Origin: Treponema sp.
Lineage (GTDB): Bacteria > Spirochaetota > Spirochaetia > Treponematales > Breznakiellaceae
Reading direction: 5' to 3'
DNA: 64,000 bases
NCBI GenBank assembly: GCA_009777335.1
Contig: WRMC01000003.1
Location: 1-64,000, forward strand
The notes beneath the pieces are model-generated. The model ran no database searches. It was not told the DNA's origin and saw only the letters and a program-made list of their open reading frames with translations. Of the stretch, positions 14,154 to 62,690 are shown piece by piece. The stretch's first letter is position 1. Every line of letters begins with the position of its first letter. A program made the translations under genes and the position numbers.

Positions 14154-14244
14154 GAATTTAATTAAAATTATTTTAATTTTCTTGACAGTTAGTGTAAAGA
14201 AGATATAAAATAATCTTTAATGGAACGTGAACGGAGGCGATAAG

Positions 14245-14511
14245 ATGAATCCTAAGAAAAGTGATGTTACTCCAGTGGGGTTATTTCTCAGAAGGCTCAG
14301 GTTTGAGCATAACGAAAGTCAAGAAGAGATGGCCCAGAAGTTAGGCATTACTGCCCCTTATATTAGCTTGCTCGAGTACAGGCAACCGTTGACGAAGAAG
14401 CTCGCTTTAGGGATTATTCGGTCTTACAACCTGAGCGGGAAAGAGAAAGATGCGTTTGTAAACATGGTGACCAATGATGTGGTGCAACGGTTTTGGGGGA
14501 AGGTGGGATGA
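14245..14511 (+). CDS. XRE-family HTH protein
   Basis: LRRLRFEHNESQEEMAQKLGITAPYISLLE. Confidence 0.85.
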   Translation: MNPKKSDVTPVGLFLRRLRFEHNESQEEMAQKLGITAPYISLLEYRQPLTKKLALGIIRSYNLSGKEKDAFVNMVTNDVVQRFWGKVG

Positions 14512-15173
14512 CAAGGGAAGAATACACACGGGAGCATTACAGGCGAGCTAAAATATGGAATGACCAGGAATGGCAAGCCGAGCAAAGAGAATTAGAAAAA
14601 TCCCATGTAGAAAATTTTATTAAGAGCGATCCCATTGCCGATGAATATAGCTCTTTATTAGAGAAATGTCTTTTAAACCAGTATTGGATTTCTGCGAAGT
14701 CAAGCCCTCACCAGTATACATTGATGAAAGATTTTAAGGATACAGGTGGCATAGAATATAGTTCAATAACTTCAGCAATAGGGAAATATGGTTTTTTTGG
14801 GTATTATTGGTGTGAATTGCACCAATACCTCATTTTAGGAGACTTTTATTACTGGAGTTCATTGTACCCGGACTCATGGGAATTGATAAACCGTTCTAGA
14901 ATTGATACCCCACCGAAAGAAGCGTATAAAACTAATTTTGAAGGGAAATGGGCAATTGTTGGAAAACCCAGTATTAAAAGTTACCCCTACCCTTGTAATC
15001 CTTATAACGGAAAACCTTTAGACAAGAACCCATTTAATGGGAACCCGATTAGAGAATTTAATTTGGACCCAGAGCATTGCAAATTTACAGTAAAAAGTAA
15101 TTATACAGAAGAAAAGAAACCAGTAGTTTATAAAGACAAACCTATAATTTACAGACAAGGGATGTTATTTTAG
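14508..15173 (+). CDS. hypothetical protein with N-terminal TREEYTREHYRRAK motif
   Basis: ORF; motif shared with MuF protein. Confidence 0.65.
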   Translation: MTREEYTREHYRRAKIWNDQEWQAEQRELEKSHVENFIKSDPIADEYSSLLEKCLLNQYWISAKSSPHQYTLMKDFKDTGGIEYSSITSAIGKYGFFGYYWCELHQYLILGDFYYWSSLYPDSWELINRSRIDTPPKEAYKTNFEGKWAIVGKPSIKSYPYPCNPYNGKPLDKNPFNGNPIREFNLDPEHCKFTVKSNYTEEKKPVVYKDKPIIYRQGMLF

Positions 15174-15182
15174 GAGGGACAA

Positions 15183-15848
15183 GTGAAAATTAATTGTACA
15201 TATAAAGAATTACTGCCCATTAGCCAACTCTCCATAAAAATGACCGAGAAGTTAAAAATACGGACTAAACAGAGCGTTAATGAAGAGGCAAGAAGGCTGC
15301 TTCTTCATGGATTTTTAACTCCTATTTTTGTATGGAAAAATAATCAAGTTAATGAGGTAGTTGACGGTGTAGGAAGGTGTCTTGCTATAAAAGCTATAAA
15401 CGATAATTTAATTGGCCTTAACCTTAATGGGGAATTGGAAAATAATCTAGGGGAAGAGGTAAAAGAAGCCCCAGTAGTTTATATTGAATCTACTTCATTA
15501 GAAGAGGCAAAGAAAAAGGTATTGCTTGTAAACTCTATGTTTGGGAAGATTGATAAAGATACACTGGAGGAATACAGTAAATTATCAGGGGATAGCGTAG
15601 ACTATATAAATTGCCATACTACATTTTTTGAGTATGTGAACGAAGTCGAGGCTGAGATGCCAGAAATATCTTTAGATTCCGAATGGCTAAACACTGGTTA
15701 TGAACCGAAAATTGGGGGGCATGATATATCAGAAGAAGACATAAGTAAAGCAGAGAAAAAAATCACTGAAATTGTAGCTACTAAAGAGAAAGAATATGTA
15801 ACAGTAACCTGCCATAATTGCGGACATATTTTCACTGTAGGTAAGTAG
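15183..15848 (+). CDS. ParB-like domain plus C-terminal zinc ribbon
   Basis: VVDGVGRCLAIKAI; C-terminal CHNCGHIF; same architecture as 20088-20585. Confidence 0.6.
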   Translation: MKINCTYKELLPISQLSIKMTEKLKIRTKQSVNEEARRLLLHGFLTPIFVWKNNQVNEVVDGVGRCLAIKAINDNLIGLNLNGELENNLGEEVKEAPVVYIESTSLEEAKKKVLLVNSMFGKIDKDTLEEYSKLSGDSVDYINCHTTFFEYVNEVEAEMPEISLDSEWLNTGYEPKIGGHDISEEDISKAEKKITEIVATKEKEYVTVTCHNCGHIFTVGK

Positions 15849-15877
15849 GAATTGCTAACACACGGGAGGGACATTAA

Positions 15878-16654
15878 ATGAACAGAAAAATACTCATCAT
15901 AGGATATGGGAATATAGGTAAACATATACATGAAGAATTAAAACCACTAGACCCTGATATTTATGACCCGTATATACCCGAATTTTCTAAAATGCCTACT
16001 GAAAATTATGATGTAGCCTTTATTGCAGTTCCCACTGAAATGAATCATGACGGGAGTTGTAATATCTCAATAGTAATAGAATCGGTAAAGAATGCCAATG
16101 CAAAGGTAATAGCAATACGTTCTACTGTTCCTCCGGGCACGAACAAAGAACTAACAAAAATAACAGGAAAAACCATAGTATCAGCTCCCGAGTTTTATGG
16201 AGTATCACAGCACAGCAAGAGAAACCTTGATTTCATCATTTTGGGGGCAGACGGGCCGAGTAAATATGCCGTAGGTCAAGTATTCGCCAAAGTAAAAACC
16301 GGGAACTATCGTATACATTATACTGATTCTCTTACAGCAGAATTGGTAAAATATATGTTAAATTGCTACCTTGCGATGAAGGTAACATTTTGCAATGAGT
16401 TTGCTTTAGTAGCAAATAAAATTGGAGTTGAGTACCAGGAGTTAAGAGAATTATTTATCTTAGATGAAAGAATAAGCCCGTCTCATACTATCTCATATCC
16501 AGAACAGCCATTTTACGACAATCATTGCTTTAATAAAGATGTACCAGCATTCTTGAAATTCACTAAGTCAATTGGCATTGAACCTAAATTAGTAGAAGCA
16601 GTCGAAAAAGTAAACAAAGAGATGAAAAGTAAGTATGGTGGCTTAGATGACTAA
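15878..16654 (+). CDS. UDP-glucose/GDP-mannose dehydrogenase-like protein lacking the C-terminal NDP-sugar domain
   Basis: IIGYGNIGKH, RSTVPPGT, AELVKYMLN, HCFNKDVPAF. Confidence 0.75.
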   Translation: MNRKILIIGYGNIGKHIHEELKPLDPDIYDPYIPEFSKMPTENYDVAFIAVPTEMNHDGSCNISIVIESVKNANAKVIAIRSTVPPGTNKELTKITGKTIVSAPEFYGVSQHSKRNLDFIILGADGPSKYAVGQVFAKVKTGNYRIHYTDSLTAELVKYMLNCYLAMKVTFCNEFALVANKIGVEYQELRELFILDERISPSHTISYPEQPFYDNHCFNKDVPAFLKFTKSIGIEPKLVEAVEKVNKEMKSKYGGLDD

Positions 16655-17465
16655 AAAGCTGTTTTCTGCCGTTTGGTGTCTTGATGCCAGTGACAAGTAT
16701 TTTCTAGGGGCAAGTAGTAGCATCTGTTCATGTATGAAATACCATGGAGATGATATATTATACCACATAATAACCAGTAAAGAATTAACTGCATTTCAGA
16801 AGGATATAGTCAATAGAATTACTAGGACGTATGGGCAGGAAATTGAAATAGTAAAACTTAATGGAATATCTGCATTCAAAGGATATTCACGTTCATGGCC
16901 CCCCATCGTTTATGCACGACTTTTAATTGGCGACCACTTTAAACTACCTTATATGGCTATTGATGCAGATGTGTTATTTTTTTCCAAAATAGATGATATA
17001 TCTTTCCTCACGCCCGAAAAACCAATAGCATCTTTATGCGACAGTGCCCAGATAAAAAAAGGAAAAATGGAAAAGTTGAATAATGCATTCGGATCCACAA
17101 TGGATAAATACTTGAATGGTGGAGTATTATTTGTATTACCAGGAACAATCCATAAAAGAGTAGTCCCGGAGTTTTTAAAAAAGCATGGTAAACACCCAGC
17201 GTTAGAGCATAATGAACAAGATATAGTGAACATCATATTTTCAGGAAAAACCCAGTATTACCCGGATGGGTATGGTTTATTATTATACAACCGAAGCAAG
17301 AAGTGGAAAAATGAACGAATCAACGAAATAATGGGGGGGGGGGGGTATAAGTTTGTGCACATATTTGAAAAACAATGGGTCGAGACCAGTGTTTTCTATG
17401 AATTGCATAAGTCATATCTTTACGAAATTGGTATTAACTCTGATGCTATAGTGGAGAATGTATAG
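16647..17465 (+). CDS. GT8-like glycosyltransferase
   Basis: YARLLIGDHF..YMAIDADVLFF (DxD), HNEQDIVN. Confidence 0.75.
   Translation: MTKKLFSAVWCLDASDKYFLGASSSICSCMKYHGDDILYHIITSKELTAFQKDIVNRITRTYGQEIEIVKLNGISAFKGYSRSWPPIVYARLLIGDHFKLPYMAIDADVLFFSKIDDISFLTPEKPIASLCDSAQIKKGKMEKLNNAFGSTMDKYLNGGVLFVLPGTIHKRVVPEFLKKHGKHPALEHNEQDIVNIIFSGKTQYYPDGYGLLLYNRSKKWKNERINEIMGGGGYKFVHIFEKQWVETSVFYELHKSYLYEIGINSDAIVENV
17333..17345 (+). repeat. poly-G tract (G13) inside GT8 gene
   Basis: atggggggggggggg tataa; codons ATG GGG GGG GGG GGG TAT. Confidence 0.95.
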
Positions 17466-17924
17466 ATGATTTTATTTGATTACAGGATTGGTGTCTCCCA
17501 GAATAACGGGCTAGGTCTATTCACGAAAGAAAAAATAGGTAAAGGACAGGTATGCTTTGTTTCTACCCCGAATCTTGATCAAACTTTAACGGAAGAAGAG
17601 TTTGCATATTTGCCTAATGTAGACCAGGAAGAGATTATACATTATGGGTATAAAGACGAGCGGACAAATCTTTATAGGTTAGATTTTGATGTAGGATTAA
17701 GGTTCTTGAATCATTCTGCTGATTCGAATATTACGCAAGATATAAATGATAGTGACACTTATCTTACGGCAAAAAGGGATATTGAGGCAGGAGAAGAAAT
17801 TCTTTGGAATTACTTAGAAATCATGGATATTGAATTTTTCAGGAAGGGTTTTAATTACCTCCCAATAGACGATGTTGAAAAACTCATAGAAGAATCATTA
17901 TATGCTAATACCAAGGAGCAGTAA
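17466..17924 (+). CDS. SET-domain protein
   Basis: NGLGLFTKEKIGKGQ, RFLNHSADSNI, IEAGEEILWNY. Confidence 0.75.
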   Translation: MILFDYRIGVSQNNGLGLFTKEKIGKGQVCFVSTPNLDQTLTEEEFAYLPNVDQEEIIHYGYKDERTNLYRLDFDVGLRFLNHSADSNITQDINDSDTYLTAKRDIEAGEEILWNYLEIMDIEFFRKGFNYLPIDDVEKLIEESLYANTKEQ

Positions 17925-17925
17925 T

Positions 17926-18486
17926 ATGAACCACAGGATATCAATTAGAGATATTATGGTTGATAATCTCGATGATTTGTTTAAGGGAGAGAAAGCAGAG
18001 GCTATGTATTGTGACCCACCTTGGGGAATAGGCCATATAAAGTATTTTAGGACATTAAACGGGCAGAAACATAAGCAGAGTGATGATTGGCTTACGTTCT
18101 TAGGAAGAATTAAATTCCTTTATAATCGGCATGTTACTGGCCCATTGTTTCTAGAGTGTGGCCCACGATTCGTTAACGATATATTACAAGTCTTTGGAAC
18201 CCCGTCAGCAAAGTATGAATGTAAATATGGTGCTGGGTTACCTTTCTTTGTTTTATGTTTCGGGGCAGTGCCAGCAAACAGCCCAGTAGCATTTAAGGAT
18301 TGGAAAATACCTTACACAGTTTTAGGGTCTATACAAAATAAGCCCAAAAGCGTTTTTGATTGTTGTGTAGGATTAGGGCAAACTGCTAGGGCTTGCAAAG
18401 AAATAGGGGCTATATGCTATGCGAATGAACTAAACCCGCAAAGAGCAGAAAAAACGATGAAGATTCTCGATTTCGAGCAAGTTTGA
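17926..18486 (+). CDS. amino-methyltransferase-like protein (N4C/N6A type)
   Basis: YCDPPWGIGH then C-terminal VFDCCVGLGQTARA (motif IV before I). Confidence 0.7.
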   Translation: MNHRISIRDIMVDNLDDLFKGEKAEAMYCDPPWGIGHIKYFRTLNGQKHKQSDDWLTFLGRIKFLYNRHVTGPLFLECGPRFVNDILQVFGTPSAKYECKYGAGLPFFVLCFGAVPANSPVAFKDWKIPYTVLGSIQNKPKSVFDCCVGLGQTARACKEIGAICYANELNPQRAEKTMKILDFEQV

Positions 18487-18498
18487 GGGGCAGAAAAC

Positions 18499-19101
18499 AT
18501 GAAGTTTATTATGAGGACAACTTACGAAAGAAAAGTAGATGAATACCCTAAAGACATTCCGGGACTTATATTTTCAACAATATCAGAACGAAGCGGGTAT
18601 AAAAACTTTCAGAACGCATTATCAATAGCAGGTGATGATTCGGCTGTCCACATGGAAGACGACATAATTTTATGTGCAGATTTCTATAACCGTATTAAAA
18701 TCATAGTTAACGAACGCCCCAATGATATTATACAGTTTTTCAGCGGGACCAGAAGCGATGACCAAAAAAAAGGTACTAGGTATGAAACAGGTGCAAAATT
18801 TTTATGGGCCCAATGTTTTTATTTGCCACCTGGGATGAGTAAGGAAATGTATCATTTTAGCTTAAACTGGAAAGATAGGGATAACAAGTTTGGCGGATGG
18901 TCTGATGTAATGGTTGCAGACTATTTTAAGATGAAAAAAAGGAAGTATCTTGTAGTAGTTCCTAGTTTGGTAGACCACATGGAAGGAAAATCCCTCATAG
19001 ACCCAAGGCGTAGCAGTAAAAGGCAATCTAAAACATTCAAGATGTCTCCTCCACTTGAAGAGTATGGCCTTGGGCTCATCACCATAAAGGGAGGGGCGTA
19101 G
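18499..19101 (+). CDS. GT-A-like glycosyltransferase
   Basis: VHMEDDIILC; VVPSLVDHMEGKSLI. Confidence 0.6.
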   Translation: MKFIMRTTYERKVDEYPKDIPGLIFSTISERSGYKNFQNALSIAGDDSAVHMEDDIILCADFYNRIKIIVNERPNDIIQFFSGTRSDDQKKGTRYETGAKFLWAQCFYLPPGMSKEMYHFSLNWKDRDNKFGGWSDVMVADYFKMKKRKYLVVVPSLVDHMEGKSLIDPRRSSKRQSKTFKMSPPLEEYGLGLITIKGGA

Positions 19102-20091
19102 ATGCCAAAGGATTATGAAAATCTATGTGAAAGCATTGACTCAATAGACGAATTAAAGCGTTTAAGCAGGATATCAATTCAAGACCTTAAAAAATATATT
19201 AAAAATACTCTATGTGCCCCGCCGTGGGAAGGATTTAATAACGGTGATATTTCAGATAGGATAAATGAAAGCTTAAATTATTTCTATTGGTTATTTGGTG
19301 GGCATATAGACGAACTAGGAAAATACAGGCCGGAACCACAATACCTAGAAAAGATAAGTAGATTTATAACTGGCTATGTTAAACTTTATGGTGATTTTAT
19401 GGATTCAACCGAATCATGGAAGCCAGAGTATAATGAATTAGTTTGCAATGATAAAAGACTTAAGATGGAAGATTATGAGGAGGGGTACAATACATTCAAT
19501 GAGTTTTTTACCAGGAGGTTAAAAAACGGAAAAAGGCCAATAGGAGAAGGATTTGTCTCTCCAGTCGATGGCGTGATTCAAAACGTACACCCTATAAATG
19601 ATGGGATTGTCGCTACTAAAATTAAATCATCAATTTATCAGCAAATTCAAGAATTGATTCAGGAACCACTAAATAATGGTACTCTAATAAGTCTTTTCTT
19701 AGATGTTTATGATTATCACCGTATTCATGCCCCCGATGACATGACGGTAACGAGTATTCGCAAGGTAAAGGGTGGTAATTTTGTAGGTGGGTTTGTTGAA
19801 TATATCAATGGCAAGTATGTATTAGACAGCTCAGAGTATGGGTGGCAGTCTCTTGAGACCAGAGTTATTGTCAAAGCTTGTAATGAAACCATAGGTAGAT
19901 TTTGGATAGTCCCAGTAGGGATGTCCCATGTAGGTTCTATTGAGATAACCTGTAAAGAAGGAGATACTATTAAAAAGGGAAGTGAAATAGGTTTATTTAA
20001 ATTTGGCGGTTCTTGCGTAGTCATTATTATCGAAGCACCGATTGGAAAAATACAAAAAAAACACTTTTTAATGGGAGAGAGGCTACTATGA
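19102..20091 (+). CDS. psd: phosphatidylserine decarboxylase-like enzyme
   Basis: FNEFFTRRLKNGKRPI, SPVDG, YDYHRIHAP, VGMSHVGSIE, IGLFKFGGSCVVII. Confidence 0.85.
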   Translation: MPKDYENLCESIDSIDELKRLSRISIQDLKKYIKNTLCAPPWEGFNNGDISDRINESLNYFYWLFGGHIDELGKYRPEPQYLEKISRFITGYVKLYGDFMDSTESWKPEYNELVCNDKRLKMEDYEEGYNTFNEFFTRRLKNGKRPIGEGFVSPVDGVIQNVHPINDGIVATKIKSSIYQQIQELIQEPLNNGTLISLFLDVYDYHRIHAPDDMTVTSIRKVKGGNFVGGFVEYINGKYVLDSSEYGWQSLETRVIVKACNETIGRFWIVPVGMSHVGSIEITCKEGDTIKKGSEIGLFKFGGSCVVIIIEAPIGKIQKKHFLMGERLL

Positions 20092-20585
20092 AAGTGAATG
20101 ATTGTGGCAGTGATTTAATTGATTTTCATGAACTTACAGAGTTTCAGGGCAACTTCAAAATTAGAACAGATTTGGACATCAATGAAATTAAGTCCAAAAT
20201 TATGGAGTACGGGTTTTCTTTCCCTATGTTTGTGTGGGAATGTGAGGGTAAAAAATATGTCATTGATGGACATGGAAGATTGGAGGCACTTAAAAGCCTG
20301 GAGGAGGACGGTCATTCTATCCCTCCTGTTCCAGTGGTTTATGTCAAAGCGACTGATACCAAAGAGGCAATTAGGATACTTCTATTGTGTAATACCAGAT
20401 TTGGATATATTACCGACACCTCCGCAGACAATTTTATGGATGGTATTGATTATAAAGGTATGCTAGAAAACCTTAGTTTAGATGAACTAATCATGTCACC
20501 AGAGGAAGTGCCAACGGTATACCCAGCAGGGGACATAATTTGCCCAAAATGCGGCACCGTCCACATTGTTTATGAGGCCCAATGA
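20088..20585 (+). CDS. ParB-like domain plus C-terminal zinc ribbon
   Basis: VIDGHGRLEAL; C-terminal CPKCGTVH. Confidence 0.7.
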   Translation: MKVNDCGSDLIDFHELTEFQGNFKIRTDLDINEIKSKIMEYGFSFPMFVWECEGKKYVIDGHGRLEALKSLEEDGHSIPPVPVVYVKATDTKEAIRILLLCNTRFGYITDTSADNFMDGIDYKGMLENLSLDELIMSPEEVPTVYPAGDIICPKCGTVHIVYEAQ

Positions 20586-21685
20586 AAGTTTACTACAACG
20601 ACAATGTTGTTCAAGCCGCTCTTAAAAGGACCCGATTTATCTATCAACATTTTGGTGATAAAACCTATGTGTCTTTTTCTGGAGGGAAGGATTCCACCGT
20701 TTGCCTTGAGTTGGCTCATATTGTTGCAGAAGAAATGGGCCTTTTACCAGTTAATGTTATGTGGCTAGATCAGGAAGCAGAATGGGGAATGACAGTAGAG
20801 TATGCGAAAAGAGTATTCTCATTACCTTGGGTAAAACCATATTGGATTCAAACCCCGTTTATATTGGATTGCTCCTTAAATGGACATGACGGGGGCTTAA
20901 AATGCTGGGAAGGTGATACCATACGTGAAAAAGACCCGAATTCAATACATGAAATACCGGGAAGTAAAGACAAGGTATTTTATGACACGTTAGATTTGAT
21001 TCAAAAAGAACTATTCAAAGACGGGTGTACCATATATGGGATGAGGTGTGAAGAGAGTCCAAATAGGTACCTGGGGCTAGTAACCATTAAGAAATTTGTC
21101 GGCCCCGAGGTGTGGGGAGCCGTCAGTAAGCCAAAAAGAGCAGCAGTAATTTATGACTGGTCTACAAGCGATGTCTGGAAATTCATAAGTGAACATGACC
21201 TCGATTATAACAGATTATATGACTTTCAATATGCCAAGGGATTACCCATTTTCAGAATGAGGGTATCTTCTTTAATCCACGAAACCGCATTCACAGCCTT
21301 AGATTATGCCCAGGAACTAGAAGGAGAGATGTGGGAAAAGCTTACAGAACGTATCCATGGCATAAACACATATAAACATTGCCCAGAAGCTTATCAAATA
21401 CCAAAAAAACTACCTGTTATGTTCCAAAATTGGCGAGAATATAGAGATTTTCTGTTAATAAAACTAATCCAAGATGAAAAACACTTGGAAAGTATGAAAA
21501 AAGCATTTGAGAGAGACGATAAAAAAACACCATTTTACCCTAAAGACGTAGCCTCCCGGGTTTATTTGACTCATATTAAAACAATTTTAGCAGATGATTA
21601 CTATTTAACAGGTTTGACTAACCTTAAGGCTCTAACGGGTAAATATGACCAAGCAATTGTTAAGAAGACAGGGGGTGTAATATGA
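20582..21685 (+). CDS. PAPS-reductase-family (IbrA-like) protein
   Basis: VSFSGGKDSTVCLELA..MWLDQEAEWGMT. Confidence 0.8.
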   Translation: MKVYYNDNVVQAALKRTRFIYQHFGDKTYVSFSGGKDSTVCLELAHIVAEEMGLLPVNVMWLDQEAEWGMTVEYAKRVFSLPWVKPYWIQTPFILDCSLNGHDGGLKCWEGDTIREKDPNSIHEIPGSKDKVFYDTLDLIQKELFKDGCTIYGMRCEESPNRYLGLVTIKKFVGPEVWGAVSKPKRAAVIYDWSTSDVWKFISEHDLDYNRLYDFQYAKGLPIFRMRVSSLIHETAFTALDYAQELEGEMWEKLTERIHGINTYKHCPEAYQIPKKLPVMFQNWREYRDFLLIKLIQDEKHLESMKKAFERDDKKTPFYPKDVASRVYLTHIKTILADDYYLTGLTNLKALTGKYDQAIVKKTGGVI

Positions 21686-22341
21686 GCATAGACGAAGCCA
21701 TTCAAATTATTAACGAATATATTGGTGATGACATCGAAAGAGCCAATGAAATAAGAGCCCATATAAAAGCAGTCAGCCAACCGATAGACCATGTTATCTG
21801 GGTGCCCGTAGAGAAAGTTTACCCTAATTCATATAACCCCAACTCTGTAGCAAAAAAGGAGTTGGCTCTCCTAAAAAAGAGTATCGAAGCAGACGGGTAT
21901 ACACAGCCCATAGTCACAGTAAAAGACGAAGATGGCAGATACTGCATCATCGATGGGTTTCATAGATATTTCGTGGGTAAGTCAGTAGATACTATTAAGG
22001 ACAGGAATAAAGGATATCTACCTATAGTTGTCTTAGAAAAAACCATGGAAGAGCGTATGGCTGCTACAGTACGGCACAATAGGGCCAGGGGAACCCATGG
22101 AATATCTAATATGTCTAAACTTGTCTTTAATATGCTCTCCCAGGGGATGGACGAAAAAGACATCGCCAATGAATTAGGGATGGAAGCCGAGGAGGTACTT
22201 AGGTTAAAGCATATTACTGGGTTTTCTAAGCTTTTCGAAGACAAGGAATACGGGAAAGCATGGGAAACTACGAAAATGGCGGCTCATAGGGTTGAATACT
22301 TAAAAAACCACCCTGATGAGTACGGCGTATCTTATGAGTAG
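21682..22341 (+). CDS. ParB-like (IbrB-like) protein
   Basis: VYPNSYNPNSV..GYTQPIV..IIDGFHRY; ATGA overlap with IbrA-like gene. Confidence 0.8.
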   Translation: MSIDEAIQIINEYIGDDIERANEIRAHIKAVSQPIDHVIWVPVEKVYPNSYNPNSVAKKELALLKKSIEADGYTQPIVTVKDEDGRYCIIDGFHRYFVGKSVDTIKDRNKGYLPIVVLEKTMEERMAATVRHNRARGTHGISNMSKLVFNMLSQGMDEKDIANELGMEAEEVLRLKHITGFSKLFEDKEYGKAWETTKMAAHRVEYLKNHPDEYGVSYE

Positions 22342-22373
22342 TGGATTGCGGGTTATATCACGGGAGAATAACT

Positions 22374-22934
22374 ATGCCGAGAGAAAGACCTGGCAAATTG
22401 ACCAGGTTTTCATCAGAAAACCAGCCAGCTAAACGTAGCCCAGGAAGACCTAAAAATGTCTTTGGACCACTGGCGAAGGCTGATAATCTTACGAATGAGG
22501 ATGTCAAAAAAATTTGTAAAAACCTGCTAAAAAGCGACCCAAGTGAATTGTCAAAGGTGGTAGCAAAATATCCGACCGTTTTAACAGTTACTTTGGCTAA
22601 TATGCTGACCCAAGAAATTAAAGGGAAGTTAACGGGCAGGATGGAGGCAACGGGGAGGTTATTACCGACCGGGAAGCATGATTCGGAAGGTAACATGATA
22701 ATGGAACCAGAATTGCGGCCTGAGAGAGAAAGGTCATTTGATACGGTGAAGTATATGATAGACCGTTGCTTTGGGAAGCCCGTGGAGACAGGAATCATAC
22801 TATCTGGGACCATATCAGAGGAATCAGAGGTAAGGATTAAGAATATATTCGAGAATACCTTTATTGAATCGGAAGCAATAGAACCCGATGTTATTGCTGA
22901 AAAAATGGAGTATTTGGAGCCGGACGATGGGTGA
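22374..22934 (+). CDS. terminase small subunit-like protein
   Basis: DUF5681-like N-terminus; directly upstream of large terminase. Confidence 0.6.
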   Translation: MPRERPGKLTRFSSENQPAKRSPGRPKNVFGPLAKADNLTNEDVKKICKNLLKSDPSELSKVVAKYPTVLTVTLANMLTQEIKGKLTGRMEATGRLLPTGKHDSEGNMIMEPELRPERERSFDTVKYMIDRCFGKPVETGIILSGTISEESEVRIKNIFENTFIESEAIEPDVIAEKMEYLEPDDG

Positions 22935-24279
22935 TTGGAGAGGGTTACTTAACTCAGAAAAGGCTATCATGATGGTGGCTAAGCAACCTCATTTACTCGG
23001 TCATATCATCGGCAAGGATAAACTTACCCCAGTACACAGCGACTGGATACGATACATTTGGGACACGAACCAGCAAAGAGCCCTAATGGCTTACCGTGGC
23101 AGTTATAAAACTACAGCAATATGCACCATTGGAACTATCCGATGGATGCTCTTTAACCCGGATGACCGCATAGCCATTTTCAGGAAAAACGTGGGTCATT
23201 CTGCTGATGTGGTTAATACCGTGGCTCAGGCAATGCAATATACCGAGGTAGCAGAGATTTTCAAGTATCGCTTTGGAGAGTACCCCAATGCAAAGATACA
23301 GCGGAATGGGGCATTGCAATACACCTTCAAAAAGACGATAACCCCGGAGCCGAATGTCATTGCCCTTGGGGTGTCCAGTGGAGATATCACGGGTAAGCAT
23401 TTTGATAAAATAATCATTGATGACTTCGCAACAATTCGAGATAGGGTAAGCAGAGCAGAAAGACAGCACACCAAGTTATCCCTAATGGAAATACAAACAA
23501 ACATCATCGACCCTAAGAAGGGAGTTGGCTACATCGGCACCCCGTGGCACCGGGATGATGCTTGGAAGTATGTCAACAGTCTCTGTCCCGTGGCAAAGTA
23601 CCCTATTAGCAGGTATGGAAGCATTGTAGGTGAAGACGAGGTAAAGAATAAAAAGGCAACTACCACGCCAGCCCTATATGCCGCTAATTATGAGTTAGAC
23701 CTTATATCTGACGAATCCCTCTTGTTCCAGGACCCGGTTTATTCAAAGGGGTGGGATTACACTAACCGATCTGTAGCCCAACTTGATACTGCCTACGATG
23801 GGAACCATTTCTGTGCTCTCACCATTGCTTCGGCAATAAAGGGTGAAGGCGAAAACACGGTCTACCAAGTAGTTGGCTTTACTTATCCTGGTAACATACG
23901 GGATTGGTATGATACGATTGTTTCGATGTGCAAGAAGTACCGGGTCACAGCCTTGCACGAAGAATCGAATGCTGATAAGGGAATGAGTGCTAATGACCTT
24001 ACGAAAAAGGGGCTCAATGTTATTTCCTATAGTGAAAGACAGAGCAAGCATTACAAGATTAGCACCCACTTATACAAGGTGTGGCGTAATATAGAATGGG
24101 CACCTGAGACAGATGATGAATACATGGCACAGATCATCGACTATCAGGAAGGAAGTACACCCGATGATGCACCTGACAGTGCCGCTTCACTCTTTCGTGA
24201 AGCATTTTTCAAGAACATTGCTTTCGATGAAGAGCATCGTAATCAAATGGCATCCAGGCGGATGAGGGAGGCGGTATGA
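22927..24279 (+). CDS. terminase large subunit
   Basis: RGSYKTTA Walker A; FDKIIIDDFATI Walker B; nuclease region. Confidence 0.85.
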   Translation: MGDWRGLLNSEKAIMMVAKQPHLLGHIIGKDKLTPVHSDWIRYIWDTNQQRALMAYRGSYKTTAICTIGTIRWMLFNPDDRIAIFRKNVGHSADVVNTVAQAMQYTEVAEIFKYRFGEYPNAKIQRNGALQYTFKKTITPEPNVIALGVSSGDITGKHFDKIIIDDFATIRDRVSRAERQHTKLSLMEIQTNIIDPKKGVGYIGTPWHRDDAWKYVNSLCPVAKYPISRYGSIVGEDEVKNKKATTTPALYAANYELDLISDESLLFQDPVYSKGWDYTNRSVAQLDTAYDGNHFCALTIASAIKGEGENTVYQVVGFTYPGNIRDWYDTIVSMCKKYRVTALHEESNADKGMSANDLTKKGLNVISYSERQSKHYKISTHLYKVWRNIEWAPETDDEYMAQIIDYQEGSTPDDAPDSAASLFREAFFKNIAFDEEHRNQMASRRMREAV

Positions 24280-54063: not shown

Positions 54064-54137
54064 GGGCCCCTAGCTCAGTTGGTTAGAGCAGCAGACTCAT
54101 AATCCGCGGGTCCTGTGTTCAAGTCACAGGGGGCCCA
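54064..54137 (+). tRNA. tRNA with CAT anticodon (Met or Ile2)
   Basis: 7-bp acceptor GGGCCCC/GGGGCCC, D stem GCTC/GAGC, anticodon loop CTCATAA, T arm CTGTG-TTCAAGT-CACAG; no encoded CCA. Confidence 0.9.
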
Positions 54138-54613: not shown

Positions 54614-56947
54614 CTATAGGCCATAGTAGCTGTCCGACTCGTTCAGGTAATGTACCTTGTCGGTATCTGCGTTATACCAGATGGGGTAGCGGAGGACTCC
54701 CCCCTGGGAGGCGCTGGTCCCAAGGACGGTGGCTCCATCCATGTAGACCTGCTTTCTAAGGTCAGGGTTAGCGGCATTCAGATGGATCTCCCAGGGGTTA
54801 AACCAGAACTTGCCCACATTCTGGGAAAGGACGGGGTTTACCAGGCCGCTGCGGGAGTAGCCTATCATGTAACCCAGTTCCTTCTTCCCAAAGTAGAGGA
54901 CATAGCCGTAACCCTTTTTGGGCATGGGGACGGTGACATCTACGTAGCTGTTCACCACATCCTTGGCCAGGGAGATCACATGGGCAGTTCCGGCATCTAC
55001 CAGGGCGGTAAGGCGCTGGCGGGGGCCGTTGGGGTCATCCCCTATAACAATGTTGTTGTTAAAGTAGTTGGTCCCGGTGCCCCACTTGCGGCTCTCGTGG
55101 AAGGCGGTGGCAAAGGGCACTCCCGTCTTCCCGGTCCGGTTCACCATGACCGAGGGGTAGGTGCTGACCGGCTCTTCTACAAAGACCAGCCGCTGGAGGG
55201 CCCTGGCGCTGAGGCCCGTATGGAAGATCCGCAGGGTGATGGTTTCGCCCAGGTTGATGTTCCCTGTGGGGTCCTCTATGTCGGAGCTGTTCAAAGTGAT
55301 GCTCCGGAGGTTCTGGTCGGGCCTTAGGTTGGGGAGGCCCGTGTCGGGATGCAGGCCCGGGTGCAGGGCTGCGGGGTAGATCTCCTTGCGGATCTTCAGG
55401 GTTTCGCCCTCGTTGGGGCCTCCCAGGCGGCGGACCAAAAGTTCTGCTTCGAAGCGGGCTCCGGGCAGGATAGGCATCCCTATGCTGCTTAGGACCAGCA
55501 CCGACGATGAATATCCCGGAGGGGTGCCCTGGCTTTCACCCCAGCTGTTACTGTCATAGGAGGTGGCATAGTGACGATCGGTGCTGTTCCGCACGATGAG
55601 CCCCATGATGGCCACCGCCGAGTCCCCGGAAGTTCCGTTCACCAGGGTGATCACGGCCCCCACGGTGGACTCTATATTCAAATCCCAGGGGTTAAGGATA
55701 ATCTCGTAGACATGGTCGTAAAGATAGACCAGCCGCTCCACGCTCCCCGAACCGGCCGCCGACTCCAGATCGATCTGGGCCAGGTACTGGTGGTGGGGCT
55801 CTATGGGAAAGCCCAGACTGTTTTTCTCCTGGGGTATGCCTATGACCTCCACATAGCCGGTTTTGCCGTAGGTGATGGGCCTGGAGGGGCTAAAATGATC
55901 CTCGTAGTCCAAATAGAGGGGGTCCAGCTCGGGCCGCCGGAGATTGTGGATGCTAATCCCCGTGACTATGGCCTCGGTGTTGTTGGTGATCCGCAAAGCA
56001 CCCCGCCCCTGACCCCAGCGGTCTGGGGGCAGAAGGTCCTCGGCCAAAGAATCATCGGGGTAGGGGGGCCATTCCTGGCTCAGTTCGTAGTGTTCCCGGG
56101 TGGTCTTGTAAAAGTTCATGTAATGTTCCCGGATGGCCTGGGGGTCATTCGATGGCACCACCACCGCGTTTTTGGCCCCTGTGGTAACCCCCAGGCGGTT
56201 GATGGTGTAGTTCACCGTGGTCTCCCAGGTACCTTGACCCAGGGCGATGGACTGGCGGTCCCGGACATTGATGGGCCCCATGCTGTAACTGCGGCCATCG
56301 CTGGCCTTAAAACTTACCCCGTCGATGATCTGGCTGGATGAACGATTCACCACCACGTAGGTGGCCATCTGGGTTCTATTCTCCGGGGGGATGATGGCCG
56401 GGCTTGAGCCTTCACCCAGAAGGGGGTCATCTCTAGGCTCCGCCGTATCGGCTGGATCGGGGTTTAGCAGCTCCCGGCCTATGATTACCTCCCCCTGTTG
56501 GTTCCGGTAGACATAGATGGCCACCACCTCCCGGGGAAGGGGCAGGGGAACGGTGATTTCCCCCTGGCCTTCCAGGCCCTCCCTGGTCCTATAGCTAAGG
56601 CTCACCGAATAGGTGATGTCACTGGGGGGGAGGTACTGGGCCCGCCGCTCCAGGGCCCGGGGCCTTTCGGTGAAGGACCACCAGGGCTTCTGCTGGCCGT
56701 AGTTTTCGGGCCGGCTGTCCCACTCGGAAGCATCATAGGTGATATAGACATGCTTTACATCCACCGTCTTTGAGACATTGGAAATAAGCAGAACCGCGCT
56801 GGTAATATCGGTAACCGTAAAGTTACCCTCTACCTTAAGGGAACCATCTCCGCTTAAAAGGCTGATGGGGTCCAGACAGGAGCTAAACCCAAAAAGTACC
56901 GCGCTTAATAAGATGGTTTGCACAAATGTTTTTGCCCTATTTTTCAT
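54614..56947 (-). CDS. large lipoprotein, paralogue 1
   Basis: LFGFSSCLDPISLLSGDGSLKVEGNFTVTDITSAVLLI. Confidence 0.8.
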   Translation of the reverse strand: MKNRAKTFVQTILLSAVLFGFSSCLDPISLLSGDGSLKVEGNFTVTDITSAVLLISNVSKTVDVKHVYITYDASEWDSRPENYGQQKPWWSFTERPRALERRAQYLPPSDITYSVSLSYRTREGLEGQGEITVPLPLPREVVAIYVYRNQQGEVIIGRELLNPDPADTAEPRDDPLLGEGSSPAIIPPENRTQMATYVVVNRSSSQIIDGVSFKASDGRSYSMGPINVRDRQSIALGQGTWETTVNYTINRLGVTTGAKNAVVVPSNDPQAIREHYMNFYKTTREHYELSQEWPPYPDDSLAEDLLPPDRWGQGRGALRITNNTEAIVTGISIHNLRRPELDPLYLDYEDHFSPSRPITYGKTGYVEVIGIPQEKNSLGFPIEPHHQYLAQIDLESAAGSGSVERLVYLYDHVYEIILNPWDLNIESTVGAVITLVNGTSGDSAVAIMGLIVRNSTDRHYATSYDSNSWGESQGTPPGYSSSVLVLSSIGMPILPGARFEAELLVRRLGGPNEGETLKIRKEIYPAALHPGLHPDTGLPNLRPDQNLRSITLNSSDIEDPTGNINLGETITLRIFHTGLSARALQRLVFVEEPVSTYPSVMVNRTGKTGVPFATAFHESRKWGTGTNYFNNNIVIGDDPNGPRQRLTALVDAGTAHVISLAKDVVNSYVDVTVPMPKKGYGYVLYFGKKELGYMIGYSRSGLVNPVLSQNVGKFWFNPWEIHLNAANPDLRKQVYMDGATVLGTSASQGGVLRYPIWYNADTDKVHYLNESDSYYGL

Positions 56948-57065
56948 ATTGTCCTCCAAGGTAAAGTTTACTATTTTAGTAATCTTTACAGCTTGAATTT
57001 ATAAAATTTCGGGCCCCTGTGCACTAGTTTTTTGAAAATTTTTTACTTTTTTTTTGGAAAAAAAA

Positions 57066-57087
57066 CCCCCGGGCCAGGGCCCGGGGG
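57066..57087 (-). terminator. intrinsic terminator
   Basis: CCCCCGGGCC..GGCCCGGGGG plus T8 on - strand. Confidence 0.85.
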
Positions 57088-57112
57088 CGGGGATATTAGA
57101 AAGCTCTCCTTC

Positions 57113-59395
57113 CTAATAGGTCAAGGTAAAGCCGAACTGGGGATTCCTAAAGGGGACCCCTCGAACGGCAGTGACTATCCCAAGGAACTGGTTCGCCACC
57201 GAGTAGTGGCCGCTAAAGAGGATGATCTCGTCCAGGGTGATATTGGGCAGGAAGCCCACCGGGGTAGTCCCCGACAGGGACCGCCCGTAGTTGATCCAGG
57301 CCGCCAGGTGCACCAGGTTGGGGTTGGTCATGCTGACCCCTCCGCTCAGGGTGGTTCTGTAGCGGTTACTAACGCTTACCCTAAGGACCCCGTAGTGGGA
57401 TCCCACCACATTCCCCCGGCCATGGGCCCCCACCGGAAGGCTGGCTATATAGGCCGCCGCTCCAGGTGAACCGGTTATTGCCCCCCCATGGAGCCAGTCG
57501 ATCTGGACTATATCGGGGATCTCCACCGGGAGCCTGCTCTGGGACCAGACCAGGTTCTTGTTGGTGGCATTATGGGGAAGGATCTCGATAAGGAAATCCT
57601 GGTACTGAACATCTGTAGCCGTTGTGTTGGCAGTCCGGGTCACGGTCTGAACCTGATTTGATTGGGAAACCTGCCAGGTTCCAGTACTGCCCAAGCCACT
57701 CCTCCGGGCTATGATCCGGACCGATTCCACGGGGACAAAGACGCCCCCGGGGCCCCCGGAACAGTTACATGTAGTACAGGTACAGGTCCCGCCATTACTG
57801 CAGTTACAGGTGGTGGAGCCCGGGCAGGTACAGCTTCCGGTGCAGGTGCAGGTGCCGCCATTGCTGCAGTCACAGGTCCCCGGGCCGGGGCAGGTACAGG
57901 TGCCCGTACAGGTACAGGTCCCGCCGCTGCCGCAGGAGCAAGACCCCGGACAGGTGCCGCCGCCGCAATTACTGCAGGTACATTCCCCGGTGATGGTACA
58001 GCCGCAGGATCCCTCGCATCCGCAGTCACATTCGGGGGGAGTAATGACCTGACCGTTCTCTATGGCCCACTTAATGTCCGCATCGGTAATGATGAGATCA
58101 ATTGTGTCCCCTAATATAAAGTTCCGGCCAAAGTAGCGGACTATGACAAAGCCCCGGCCGTTATCATGGCGCATGTCCCTCACATAGACATCCAGGGTAT
58201 AGGGGGCGAAGTTTTCTATCATGAAGGCGCCCCCCGCCGCATCGGCGGTGCTTCTAAAGATTGCTCTTTTGGCATCCCTGGTCCAGGAAATGCCGCCCCC
58301 GCCTATGACCCCGCTGAGGATAAAGTCATCGGAGGGGATAAAGGACACGGGGACCGTGGCTCCCACCGGCGGGACGGGGTTATAGTCCCTGCTGGCCGCA
58401 ACGGCGTAGATATAGGTATTGGGCACCGCCGAGTTAAGCATCCGGACATGGACCGCCGTTGTATCCCCATGGCGGGAATCTTCGGGGTCCCTGTTTGGCG
58501 GCGGCCAGCTGCTCCCCGGCCGGGTTTCAAAACCCCCGCTGGTGTTTTTATAGAAGTAGAGGTAGTGATCCCGGGAGGCCTGAGGGTCATTGGAGTTGAC
58601 CACCGTAATGGTACTGACCGAACTCATCTGGTTGCCATTGACCGTATAGTTTACCCTGGCCATCCACTGACCGTGGCCCAAAGCTATGGCCAGGTTGTCG
58701 TTCATGGTGATGGGCCCCATGGCGTAGTTCCGGGAGCTATTGGTCAGGTTGACAAAGTAGATGCTGTCTATGTTCTGGGAACTGGAGGTATTGGCCACGA
58801 TGAAGGTAGAGAGCCTTCCGGCATTCCGGGCCGGGATGTCCGGCGGGGTCGAACCTTCGCCCTCGAAGGGGTCGTCCAGGGGGGTCCCCGTATCGTTGGG
58901 GTCCGGGTCCACCGGCTCATGGGGGCTTATGATCACCGACCCGTCCCGGTGGCGGTAGATCCATATATTGTAAATTTCCCGGGGAAGGACCGCATTGACC
59001 GACACGGTCCCCGTGCCGTTGGAGCCGTCCCTAACCCGGTAATCAATGGTTACCTGATAGGTGATATCCGTGGGGGGAAGGTACTGGGCCCTTCGCTCCA
59101 GGGCCCTGGGACGGCCCGTAAAGGACCACCAGGGTATGGGGTCCGTGACCCCCGGGTTGTGGTCCTTCCATATATCTTCGATATAGGTGATATGGACATT
59201 GGTGACATCCACGGTCCTGGACAGGTTGTTGATCATGAGGACCGCACTGGTAATGTCGGTGAGGGTAAAGTGGCCTTCCATGCGAAGGGCCCCGTCAGGG
59301 GCCAGCAAGCTTATGGGGTCTAAACAGGCAGACAGGCCAAAGAGGAGGCCCAGGACCAAAAGGACCAGGGCCAGGCGATGTACGCTAGGTTTCAT
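57113..59395 (-). CDS. large lipoprotein, paralogue 2, with Cys-rich CxC linker
   Basis: LSACLDPISLLAPDGALRMEGHFTLTDITSAVLMI; Cys-rich central segment. Confidence 0.8.
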   Translation of the reverse strand: MKPSVHRLALVLLVLGLLFGLSACLDPISLLAPDGALRMEGHFTLTDITSAVLMINNLSRTVDVTNVHITYIEDIWKDHNPGVTDPIPWWSFTGRPRALERRAQYLPPTDITYQVTIDYRVRDGSNGTGTVSVNAVLPREIYNIWIYRHRDGSVIISPHEPVDPDPNDTGTPLDDPFEGEGSTPPDIPARNAGRLSTFIVANTSSSQNIDSIYFVNLTNSSRNYAMGPITMNDNLAIALGHGQWMARVNYTVNGNQMSSVSTITVVNSNDPQASRDHYLYFYKNTSGGFETRPGSSWPPPNRDPEDSRHGDTTAVHVRMLNSAVPNTYIYAVAASRDYNPVPPVGATVPVSFIPSDDFILSGVIGGGGISWTRDAKRAIFRSTADAAGGAFMIENFAPYTLDVYVRDMRHDNGRGFVIVRYFGRNFILGDTIDLIITDADIKWAIENGQVITPPECDCGCEGSCGCTITGECTCSNCGGGTCPGSCSCGSGGTCTCTGTCTCPGPGTCDCSNGGTCTCTGSCTCPGSTTCNCSNGGTCTCTTCNCSGGPGGVFVPVESVRIIARRSGLGSTGTWQVSQSNQVQTVTRTANTTATDVQYQDFLIEILPHNATNKNLVWSQSRLPVEIPDIVQIDWLHGGAITGSPGAAAYIASLPVGAHGRGNVVGSHYGVLRVSVSNRYRTTLSGGVSMTNPNLVHLAAWINYGRSLSGTTPVGFLPNITLDEIILFSGHYSVANQFLGIVTAVRGVPFRNPQFGFTLTY

Positions 59396-59480
59396 AAATT
59401 CCTCCATGGAAGAGTCCCGCTGCCTCTACTCCCTATCCTCTTGCAGCCTTCGGTGGAAACTCCCCCTTAAGGGTTAAAAA

Positions 59481-59505
59481 ACCCGGCAGCCTAAGGCTGC
59501 CGGGT
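59481..59505 (-). terminator. intrinsic terminator
   Basis: ACCCGGCAGCC-TAA-GGCTGCCGGGT plus T-run on - strand. Confidence 0.85.
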
Positions 59506-59517
59506 AAGAACTACAAA

Positions 59518-62496: not shown

Positions 62497-62690
62497 GTTC
62501 TCCTCCATATCAGCACAAATTATTATGTAAACTATGGCAATCTTTACATAGGGTATCTACTATATATAGACCACTCCCACCTTTAAAATATATAGCTTTA
62601 CAGGTCCGATGTCAATGTTTTGGCCAAAAAAAACCCCTTTTCTTTAGGGTCATTCTATGCTAGTATCCCCCTCATAAAGGTGGAATGTCT

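Follow-up and report, generated by a model that had tools for sequence, protein, structure and literature searches.

A putative terminase-linked DNA modification cassette with a PsiD-like decarboxylase in a Treponema prophage

Proteins of ParB-like fold are known from several DNA modification systems, among them DndB, a member of the ParB superfamily, and DpdB, a ParB-like ATPase (PMC12839542, PMC11662687). Phage fusions of ParB with an N6/N4 DNA methyltransferase were described in 2025, together with the binding of ATP or CTP by members of the fold (PMC12704722), and PMC5512222 cites Bce_0392 as a ParB-methylase. Cassettes built on Mom or on TET-associated glycosyltransferases (TAGT) and gene pairs of the IbrA/IbrB type are also known already. 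Here we compare with these systems a block of phage genes at positions 15183 to 22341 of a 64,000-nucleotide stretch of Treponema sp. DNA (the window: positions 1 to 64,000, forward strand, of contig WRMC01000003.1, GenBank assembly GCA_009777335.1), which opens that contig (C3) of a 2.16-Mb, 77%-complete spirochaete genome. The original prediction, made from the sequence letters, had proposed a nine-gene, undescribed phage modification island whose substrate might be phage DNA, virion protein, or host envelope. The genes it named are all present, on the + strand and in the order given, by open reading frame (ORF), Pfam, and PHROG evidence, although they number ten. To judge from its relatives, the block is probably a late, terminase-linked cassette for the modification of phage DNA.

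The connection to DNA comes from two ParB/Srx-fold proteins with C-terminal Zn ribbons (ParB/ZnR A and B). Both keep the box-II Arg motif (GxxR), which binds nucleoside triphosphate (NTP) in the ParB-CTPase/Srx fold, as DGHGR in protein B and DGVGR in protein A; for single ParBs, a role like that of SerK or DndB is a further possibility. Neither a helix-turn-helix nor a ParA was seen among the family matches of the block, a Zn ribbon being found instead, and identity as a chromosome or plasmid partition ParB was rejected on these grounds. With this family as bait, a survey of Spirochaetia phages and IMG/VR gave 87 loci with a called ParB ORF, 64 of them nonredundant. In 29 loci an N6/N4 DNA methyltransferase forms one polypeptide with the ParB domain, in 4 Mom is close to it, a PAPS-family gene is nearby in six, and a DNA methyltransferase or Mom is present at 39/64 nonredundant loci. 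A modification gene stands within two genes of ParB at 39/64, versus a mean of 6% around a distant gene of the same locus, a comparison whose p-value is optimistic in that some profiles were built from ParB-adjacent genes. TerL lies at most four genes downstream in 44 of the 64. Homologues of ParB/ZnR are N-terminally fused to PF01555 DNA methyltransferases at L014, L042, L043, and L046, and one adjoins Mom (PF25680, 3e-51) at L041. Where methyltransferase, Mom, and PAPS genes are all missing, the Pfam-named neighbors are TAGT (PF20691, E values of 7e-47 to 3e-6; phrog_842, 3e-70), a C5 DNA methylase (6e-44), an ABC-ATPase with GNAT, and radical SAM. PADLOC profiles likewise match the cassette ParBs to ParB-type MTase_II models. 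As members of this family adjoin DNA enzymes or form fusions with them, and lie near the terminase, phage DNA before packaging is the likeliest substrate, so that a choice the original prediction had left open now falls on DNA, which we regard as quite likely to be what the conserved part of the block acts upon. The methyltransferase fusions themselves are not new, having been reported previously (PMC12704722).

Further arrangements of this ParB family merit mention in their own right. Close to the terminase, Mom-family and ParB/ZnR genes are immediate neighbors at L041 (8368-9168 and 9150-9785), L154, L167, and L168, and the same site in the closely related phages L041 and L042 holds either ParB plus Mom or a ParB-methyltransferase fusion. 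At L185 (6977-8164) a single polypeptide joins a ParB domain to a PAPS-reductase domain. ParB is followed by a TET-associated DNA glycosyltransferase at L150, L155, L169, L171, L189, L191, and L196, with a truncated sugar dehydrogenase also within the locus at L150 and L189. It is followed by an ABC-ATPase/GNAT fusion or a radical-SAM protein, candidate DNA modifications, at L173, L175, L183, and L207 and at L178, L192, L209, and L212; for GNAT paired with ABC, acylation of a DNA base has been predicted (PMC7824862).

The block was compared across five loci, namely the window, L002 (Spirochaetia MS499-44), L012 and L013 (both IMG/VR), and L040 (from a genome in the same order; its IMG/VR counterpart is L147). 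L013 was reached through ParB, viral scans with the decarboxylase alone having been empty owing to the peptide patterns chosen. All five loci share, by the terminase, a protein of the q0 family, two ParB/Zn-ribbon proteins, a PAPS-like PP-loop protein, and an IbrB-like ParB. L002, L012, and L013 also keep the upstream XRE gene and have a homologous small terminase subunit (TerS) directly downstream, and in L040 a second GT-A glycosyltransferase and the methyltransferase are placed between ParB and TerS; homologues of ParB/ZnR A in L002 and L013 match at 41-50%. The cargo set into this frame varies: a dehydrogenase, GT8, SET, methyltransferase, GT-A, and decarboxylase in the window; methyltransferase and decarboxylase in L002; a GT2-like enzyme and decarboxylase in L013; methyltransferase and a class-I methyltransferase in L012; and two GT-A, methyltransferase, and a class-I methyltransferase in L040. 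The methyltransferase is thus carried by 4/5 loci, the decarboxylase by three, and GT-A by two. By gene content, then, the block is a conserved frame plus exchangeable enzymes. The multistep cassette of the original prediction holds up as a multienzyme set ahead of the terminase whose core (both ParB/ZnR proteins, PAPS, and ParB, with methyltransferase, decarboxylase, or glycosyltransferase) recurs in independent phages, but its exact combination does not recur, and the joint presence of decarboxylase, SET, GT8, and ParB/ZnR that was to be looked for is unique to the window.

The most distinctive cargo is the decarboxylase. It belongs, as had been proposed, to the phosphatidylserine decarboxylase (PSD) superfamily, with Asp156, His206, and Gly303-Ser304 (the GGS self-cleavage site) invariant across ten relatives, but the lipid chemistry that the name implies does not follow. 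The best solved relative of its profile is PsiD, an L-tryptophan decarboxylase (3e-18), with Escherichia coli PSD at 2e-12. Its AlphaFold model shows the full-length PsiD-type fold, including the N-terminal helical domain, and matches PsiD with a VIA Z score of 15.3 over 272 residues (model range 1-301; Foldseek 7e-11), a fungal arginine decarboxylase (ArgDC) with 14.6, and E. coli PSD with 11.8 over 189 residues; VIA matches to unrelated beta-sandwich/M23 folds over residues ~148-325 were ignored. The phage enzyme has no transmembrane-like segment (maximum hydropathy, 1.77 versus 2.57-3.22 in host PSDs), and in a tree the host membrane PSDs are separated from the phage group with support of 100/100. 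The host genome encodes its own short membrane PSD beside PssA (a CDP-alcohol phosphatidyltransferase), a neighbor that the phage gene lacks. Because of this host pair, the nearer fold match to PsiD and ArgDC, and the lack of a transmembrane-like segment, a membrane-lipid role was rejected as first choice, and fold and context suggest that its most likely substrate is an amino acid or amino-acyl group rather than phosphatidylserine. The short, signal-less form was found only inside these cassettes, the nearest others being secreted or lipoprotein-like proteins of 419-459 amino acids (aa); a phage collection search gave weak PSD matches only and no relative of the methyltransferase. Stand-alone PSD-family proteins of secreted or lipoprotein-like type, 420-460 aa long, are found at L003-L010 and L225-L231, with no PssA neighbor in the L003-L010 loci read.

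The small methyltransferase, for which a start at 17926 was preferred over 17902, shows the hallmarks of a DNA N6/N4 amino-methyltransferase, as DPPW and FDCCVGLG (the FxGxG SAM motif) are conserved. The window protein alone has no Pfam match; its L040 homologue matches PF01555 (1e-7). Among 394 Spirochaetia genomes the family is present in these cassettes only. Homologues of the GT-A enzyme were found as the two copies in L040 and one in phage Hendrix, where the gene adjoins another glycosyltransferase, a methyltransferase, an N-acyltransferase, and a PAPS reductase. GT8 resembles lipopolysaccharide (LPS) galactosyltransferases, and no close phage relative of it was found. Identity as TET-associated glycosyltransferases was not retained for either enzyme.

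The nucleotide-sugar dehydrogenase (NSDH) keeps the NAD-binding and central domains and the catalytic Cys motif (HCFNKD, for HCFxKD) and ends where the UDP-binding domain would begin. With that C-terminal domain missing, it was rejected as a full UDP-sugar 6-dehydrogenase and, having no UDP site, would be expected to take an already attached sugar as its substrate. Short forms of ~250-265 aa are widespread in IMG/VR (195 matches; 57 nonredundant among the best 80 plus controls). Loci L048-L127 make up a large viral family of sugar dehydrogenases without a UDP-binding domain, often beside a glycosyltransferase. In Microbacterium phages ParB, a glycosyltransferase, and truncated NSDH lie in a row, and the three NSDH-bearing loci among 94 ParB/ZnR loci all have a glycosyltransferase (Fisher p 0.0009, on small numbers).

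The last two genes of the block, DUF3440/PAPS and ParB, lie adjacent as in an IbrA/IbrB pair. PADLOC relates the PAPS protein to BrxP (7e-9) and DndC (3e-4), over at most ~65 residues around the PP-loop, and a DndA/D/E-like partner was not noticed among the window ORFs, which were inspected by eye with no profile search. By analogy with other PP-loop enzymes, this protein may adenylate.

The block sits in a prophage that spans bases 1 to ~53.8 kb of the window, with tRNA-Met at 54064 and GC rising from ~55 kb onward to the bacterial level. Its ten genes (Table 1) are tightly packed, with intergenic gaps of at most 29 nucleotides and frequent 4-nucleotide overlaps, and the run enters TerS and the large terminase subunit (TerL) without a gap, in keeping with the location originally proposed. 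The AT-richness judged by eye is borne out, as GC is 37.4% in the block versus 43.4-51.1% in all 314 other 7159-bp segments of the prophage. The equivalent block is not AT-rich in L002, L012, and L040, so this composition bears on recent origin in the present lineage and not on function. Of the upstream flank that had been described, the XRE gene is there, but the iteron cluster beside it was not found; a repeat finder that may miss divergent iterons detected one coding repeat in 3 copies and otherwise just families of 2 copies. Just upstream of the XRE gene lies the region's best sigma-70-like match (TTGACA-18-TAAAAT, 11/12, at 14182-14211), although the total of such matches is at chance level, and the q0 family protein has no Pfam or PHROG match. 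Away from the block, L040 has a Stealth_CR2 phosphotransferase-like gene (10-945) directly after its portal gene, and the bacterial part of the window carries three tandem paralogous lipoprotein-like ORFs of 764-996 aa on the - strand (54614-62508), two with Cys/Gly-rich repeats.

Table 1. Predicted features of the block and its flanks in the window
Feature	Position	Strand	Evidence or remark
XRE-type regulator, 94 aa, head of run	14227..14511	+	Conserved in L002, L012, L013
Conserved protein, q0 family, 226-aa-like	14508..15173	+	HQY...K...YG...YW..P motif; frame member in all five loci
ParB/Srx-fold protein A, C-terminal Zn ribbon	15183..15848	+	phrog_498, phrog_620; Zn_ribbon_13 just under cut-off
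Truncated NSDH, UDP-sugar-dehydrogenase-like, 258 aa	15878..16654	+	PF00984 5e-20, PF03721 8e-8
GT8 glycosyltransferase, DAD motif	16647..17465	+	PF01501 1.5e-13
SET-domain methyltransferase, NHS and GEE..Y motifs	17466..17924	+	PF00856 1e-11
Small DPPW amino-methyltransferase, DNA N6/N4 class, without target-recognition domain	17926..18486	+	Motifs; L040 homologue PF01555
GT-A-type glycosyltransferase, EDD motif	18499..19101	+	phrog_854 1e-8
PSD-superfamily pyruvoyl-dependent decarboxylase, soluble, PsiD-like	19102..20091	+	PF02666 2e-40
ParB/Srx-fold protein B, C-terminal Zn ribbon, IDGHGR box	20088..20585	+	PHROG matches, alignment
IbrA-like PAPS-reductase-family PP-loop protein, SGGKDS	20582..21685	+	phrog_2302 7e-70, DUF3440
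IbrB-like ParB-domain protein	21682..22341	+	phrog_2159 1e-69
TerS	22341..22934	+	Overlaps stop codon of IbrB-like ParB
TerL	22888..24279	+	

A DNA modification cassette of this kind might work as follows. The ParB-fold proteins would serve as NTP-dependent DNA-binding or loading subunits, bringing enzymes with no target-recognition domain of their own onto phage DNA ahead of packaging. The PP-loop protein would activate the target or the donor through adenylation, the small DPPW enzyme would methylate a base amino group or use its fold to handle that group, and the PsiD-like pyruvoyl enzyme would decarboxylate an amino acid, free or DNA attached, to give an amine-bearing modification. GT-A, and perhaps GT8, would add a sugar that the dehydrogenase without a UDP-binding domain could oxidize to a uronate, while the SET enzyme might have a protein partner as its substrate. 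Virion DNA would emerge hypermodified and resistant to nucleases. The nature and sequence of the adenylation, methylation, decarboxylation, glycosylation, and oxidation steps are much less certain than is DNA as the substrate of the frame. A more specific version, a new type of amine-bearing DNA hypermodification, is rather improbable. The decarboxylase would supply or trim an amine, the PP-loop enzyme would join it to an adenylated base, glycosyltransferase and a dehydrogenase working on DNA-bound sugar would add a uronate, and ParB-fold NTP switches would act as a general loading platform on which modification enzymes can be interchanged. TilS, which joins lysine to cytidine in tRNA, is the model for the PP-loop step.

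Several observations weigh against a DNA modification cassette. NSDH, GT8, and SET are absent from the other four cassettes, and the window's two glycosyltransferases gave neither a Pfam match to TAGT (PF20691) nor a match to a local TAGT profile at an E value of 10. In IMG/VR, truncated NSDH is found in phage loci of glycan-like content too, with ParB near in few loci; with contexts so varied, it was not upheld as a marker of DNA modification and is not by itself evidence for DNA. A hydroxymethyl group is the usual handle for DNA glycosylation, and the 77%-complete genome yielded no thymidylate-synthase or hydroxymethylase homologue, so this handle is not evident and a hydroxymethyl-base route was set aside. 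No Cys is conserved in all five cassette PAPS proteins, and a Dnd-type Fe-S sulfur step is therefore not indicated. Finally, the structure model of the decarboxylase is moderate (pLDDT 73, pTM 0.70), and that of the methyltransferase is unusable (pLDDT 42).

The chief competing explanation, possible though clearly less probable, is that the site is a moron hotspot in which a real DNA modification core (ParB/ZnR, PAPS, ParB, and methyltransferase) has gathered unrelated host interaction genes (NSDH, GT8, SET, and perhaps the decarboxylase) with no joint pathway. The different cargo of every relative, the restriction of three genes to the window, the AT-rich composition in some lineages only, and the spread of truncated NSDH across many phage contexts would all be expected of such a site. 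The overlapping, co-directional genes fit it poorly, as do the confinement of decarboxylase and methyltransferase in their phage form to these cassettes and the company that NSDH keeps with glycosyltransferases and ParB, both in the three ParB/ZnR loci and in Microbacterium phages. It appears unlikely that GT8, GT-A, NSDH, and PSD instead remodel a spirochaete surface glycolipid or virion proteins in lysogenic conversion. Such a role would suit the likeness of GT8 to LPS galactosyltransferases, the truncated NSDH beside glycosyltransferases and other sugar genes in other phages, and the action of the PSD superfamily on lipids in cells. Yet a membrane PSD with PssA is already encoded by the host, the phage enzyme lacks a transmembrane-like segment and is nearer to amino acid decarboxylases, and homologues of the frame partner DNA enzymes and not envelope enzymes. 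A conversion gene, moreover, would stand apart, whereas this run passes straight into the terminase.

Two other proposals center on the PAPS-like protein. In one, which is more doubtful still, it and ParB would carry out a sulfur-based, phosphorothioate-like DNA modification, with the remaining enzymes as accessories. The matches to BrxP and DndC models, the ParB-PAPS fusion of L185, and the ParB-superfamily membership of DndB (PMC12839542, PMC11662687) speak for this, but the short extent of those matches around the PP-loop, the lack of a common Cys, and the lack of a DndA/D/E-like partner by eye speak against it. Lastly, the IbrA/IbrB-like pair might co-activate the transcription of a host surface gene, the cassette then acting in lysogeny, which seems very improbable: IbrAB act as co-activators in E. 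coli, and the pair is homologous to DUF3440 and phrog_2302/2159 proteins, but it lies in the packaging run, and its partners in all relatives are enzymes and not regulators.

Read as a cassette for phage DNA modification, an otherwise puzzling set of enzymes acquires a substrate open to test, the DNA of the virion. This reading also ties many ParB-like phage proteins usually annotated as "partition" or "nuclease" to a pre-terminase slot in which DNA modification enzymes swap, and the neighborhoods of this family are a place where new DNA modifications may be sought. For the chemistry of phage DNA, a PsiD-like decarboxylase and a sugar dehydrogenase without a UDP site would be uncommon enzymes, and no other described set of phage DNA modification genes was found to include a decarboxylase of this type. 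No paper was found on phage PSD with hypermodification or on ParB, PAPS reductase, glycosyltransferase, and DNA modification together. As far as the literature searched shows, "undescribed" fits the combination of decarboxylase, PP-loop protein, ParB, and methyltransferase, and the platform role of the ParB/ZnR family in the pre-terminase slot, but not the IbrA/IbrB-like pairs or ParB-methyltransferase fusions.

Set beside known proteins, the decarboxylase shares with PsiD and Aspergillus arginine decarboxylase (PDB 8zia, 8x4q, 9jf5) the whole-length fold, N-terminal helical domain, GGS site, Asp, and His, but at ~20% identity, and it is phage encoded beside DNA modification genes. NSDH resembles UDP-glucose 6-dehydrogenase in its NAD-binding and catalytic central domains and its Cys, Lys, Asn, and Asp motifs, and differs as a 258-aa member of a truncated viral subfamily without the UDP-binding domain. 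Among systems, Dnd, Ssp, and BREX-4 phosphorothioation (DndC/BrxP, DndB) likewise acts on DNA through a PP-loop protein of the PAPS family and a partner from the ParB superfamily, whereas the window has no conserved Cys set, no DndD/E recognized by eye (no profile search), and additional methyltransferase, glycosyltransferases, and decarboxylase. The phage ParB-CTPase fold/DNA N6_N4-methyltransferase fusions (PMC12704722) are of the same ParB family by alignment, relatives of the window ParB/ZnR being fused to PF01555; in the window, however, ParB and methyltransferase are not joined in one polypeptide, there are two ParB copies with Zn ribbons, and PAPS, decarboxylase, and glycosyltransferase genes are added. 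For Mom and TAGT hypermodification the likeness is one of position: in other phages the same pre-terminase slot holds Mom or TAGT with a ParB/ZnR homologue as its immediate neighbor, while the window has neither Mom nor TAGT and its glycosyltransferases are of other families. The IbrA/IbrB pair, finally, corresponds to the last two genes of the block, with DUF3440 above its curated cut-off and an adjacent ParB, but here it is embedded in a larger cassette.

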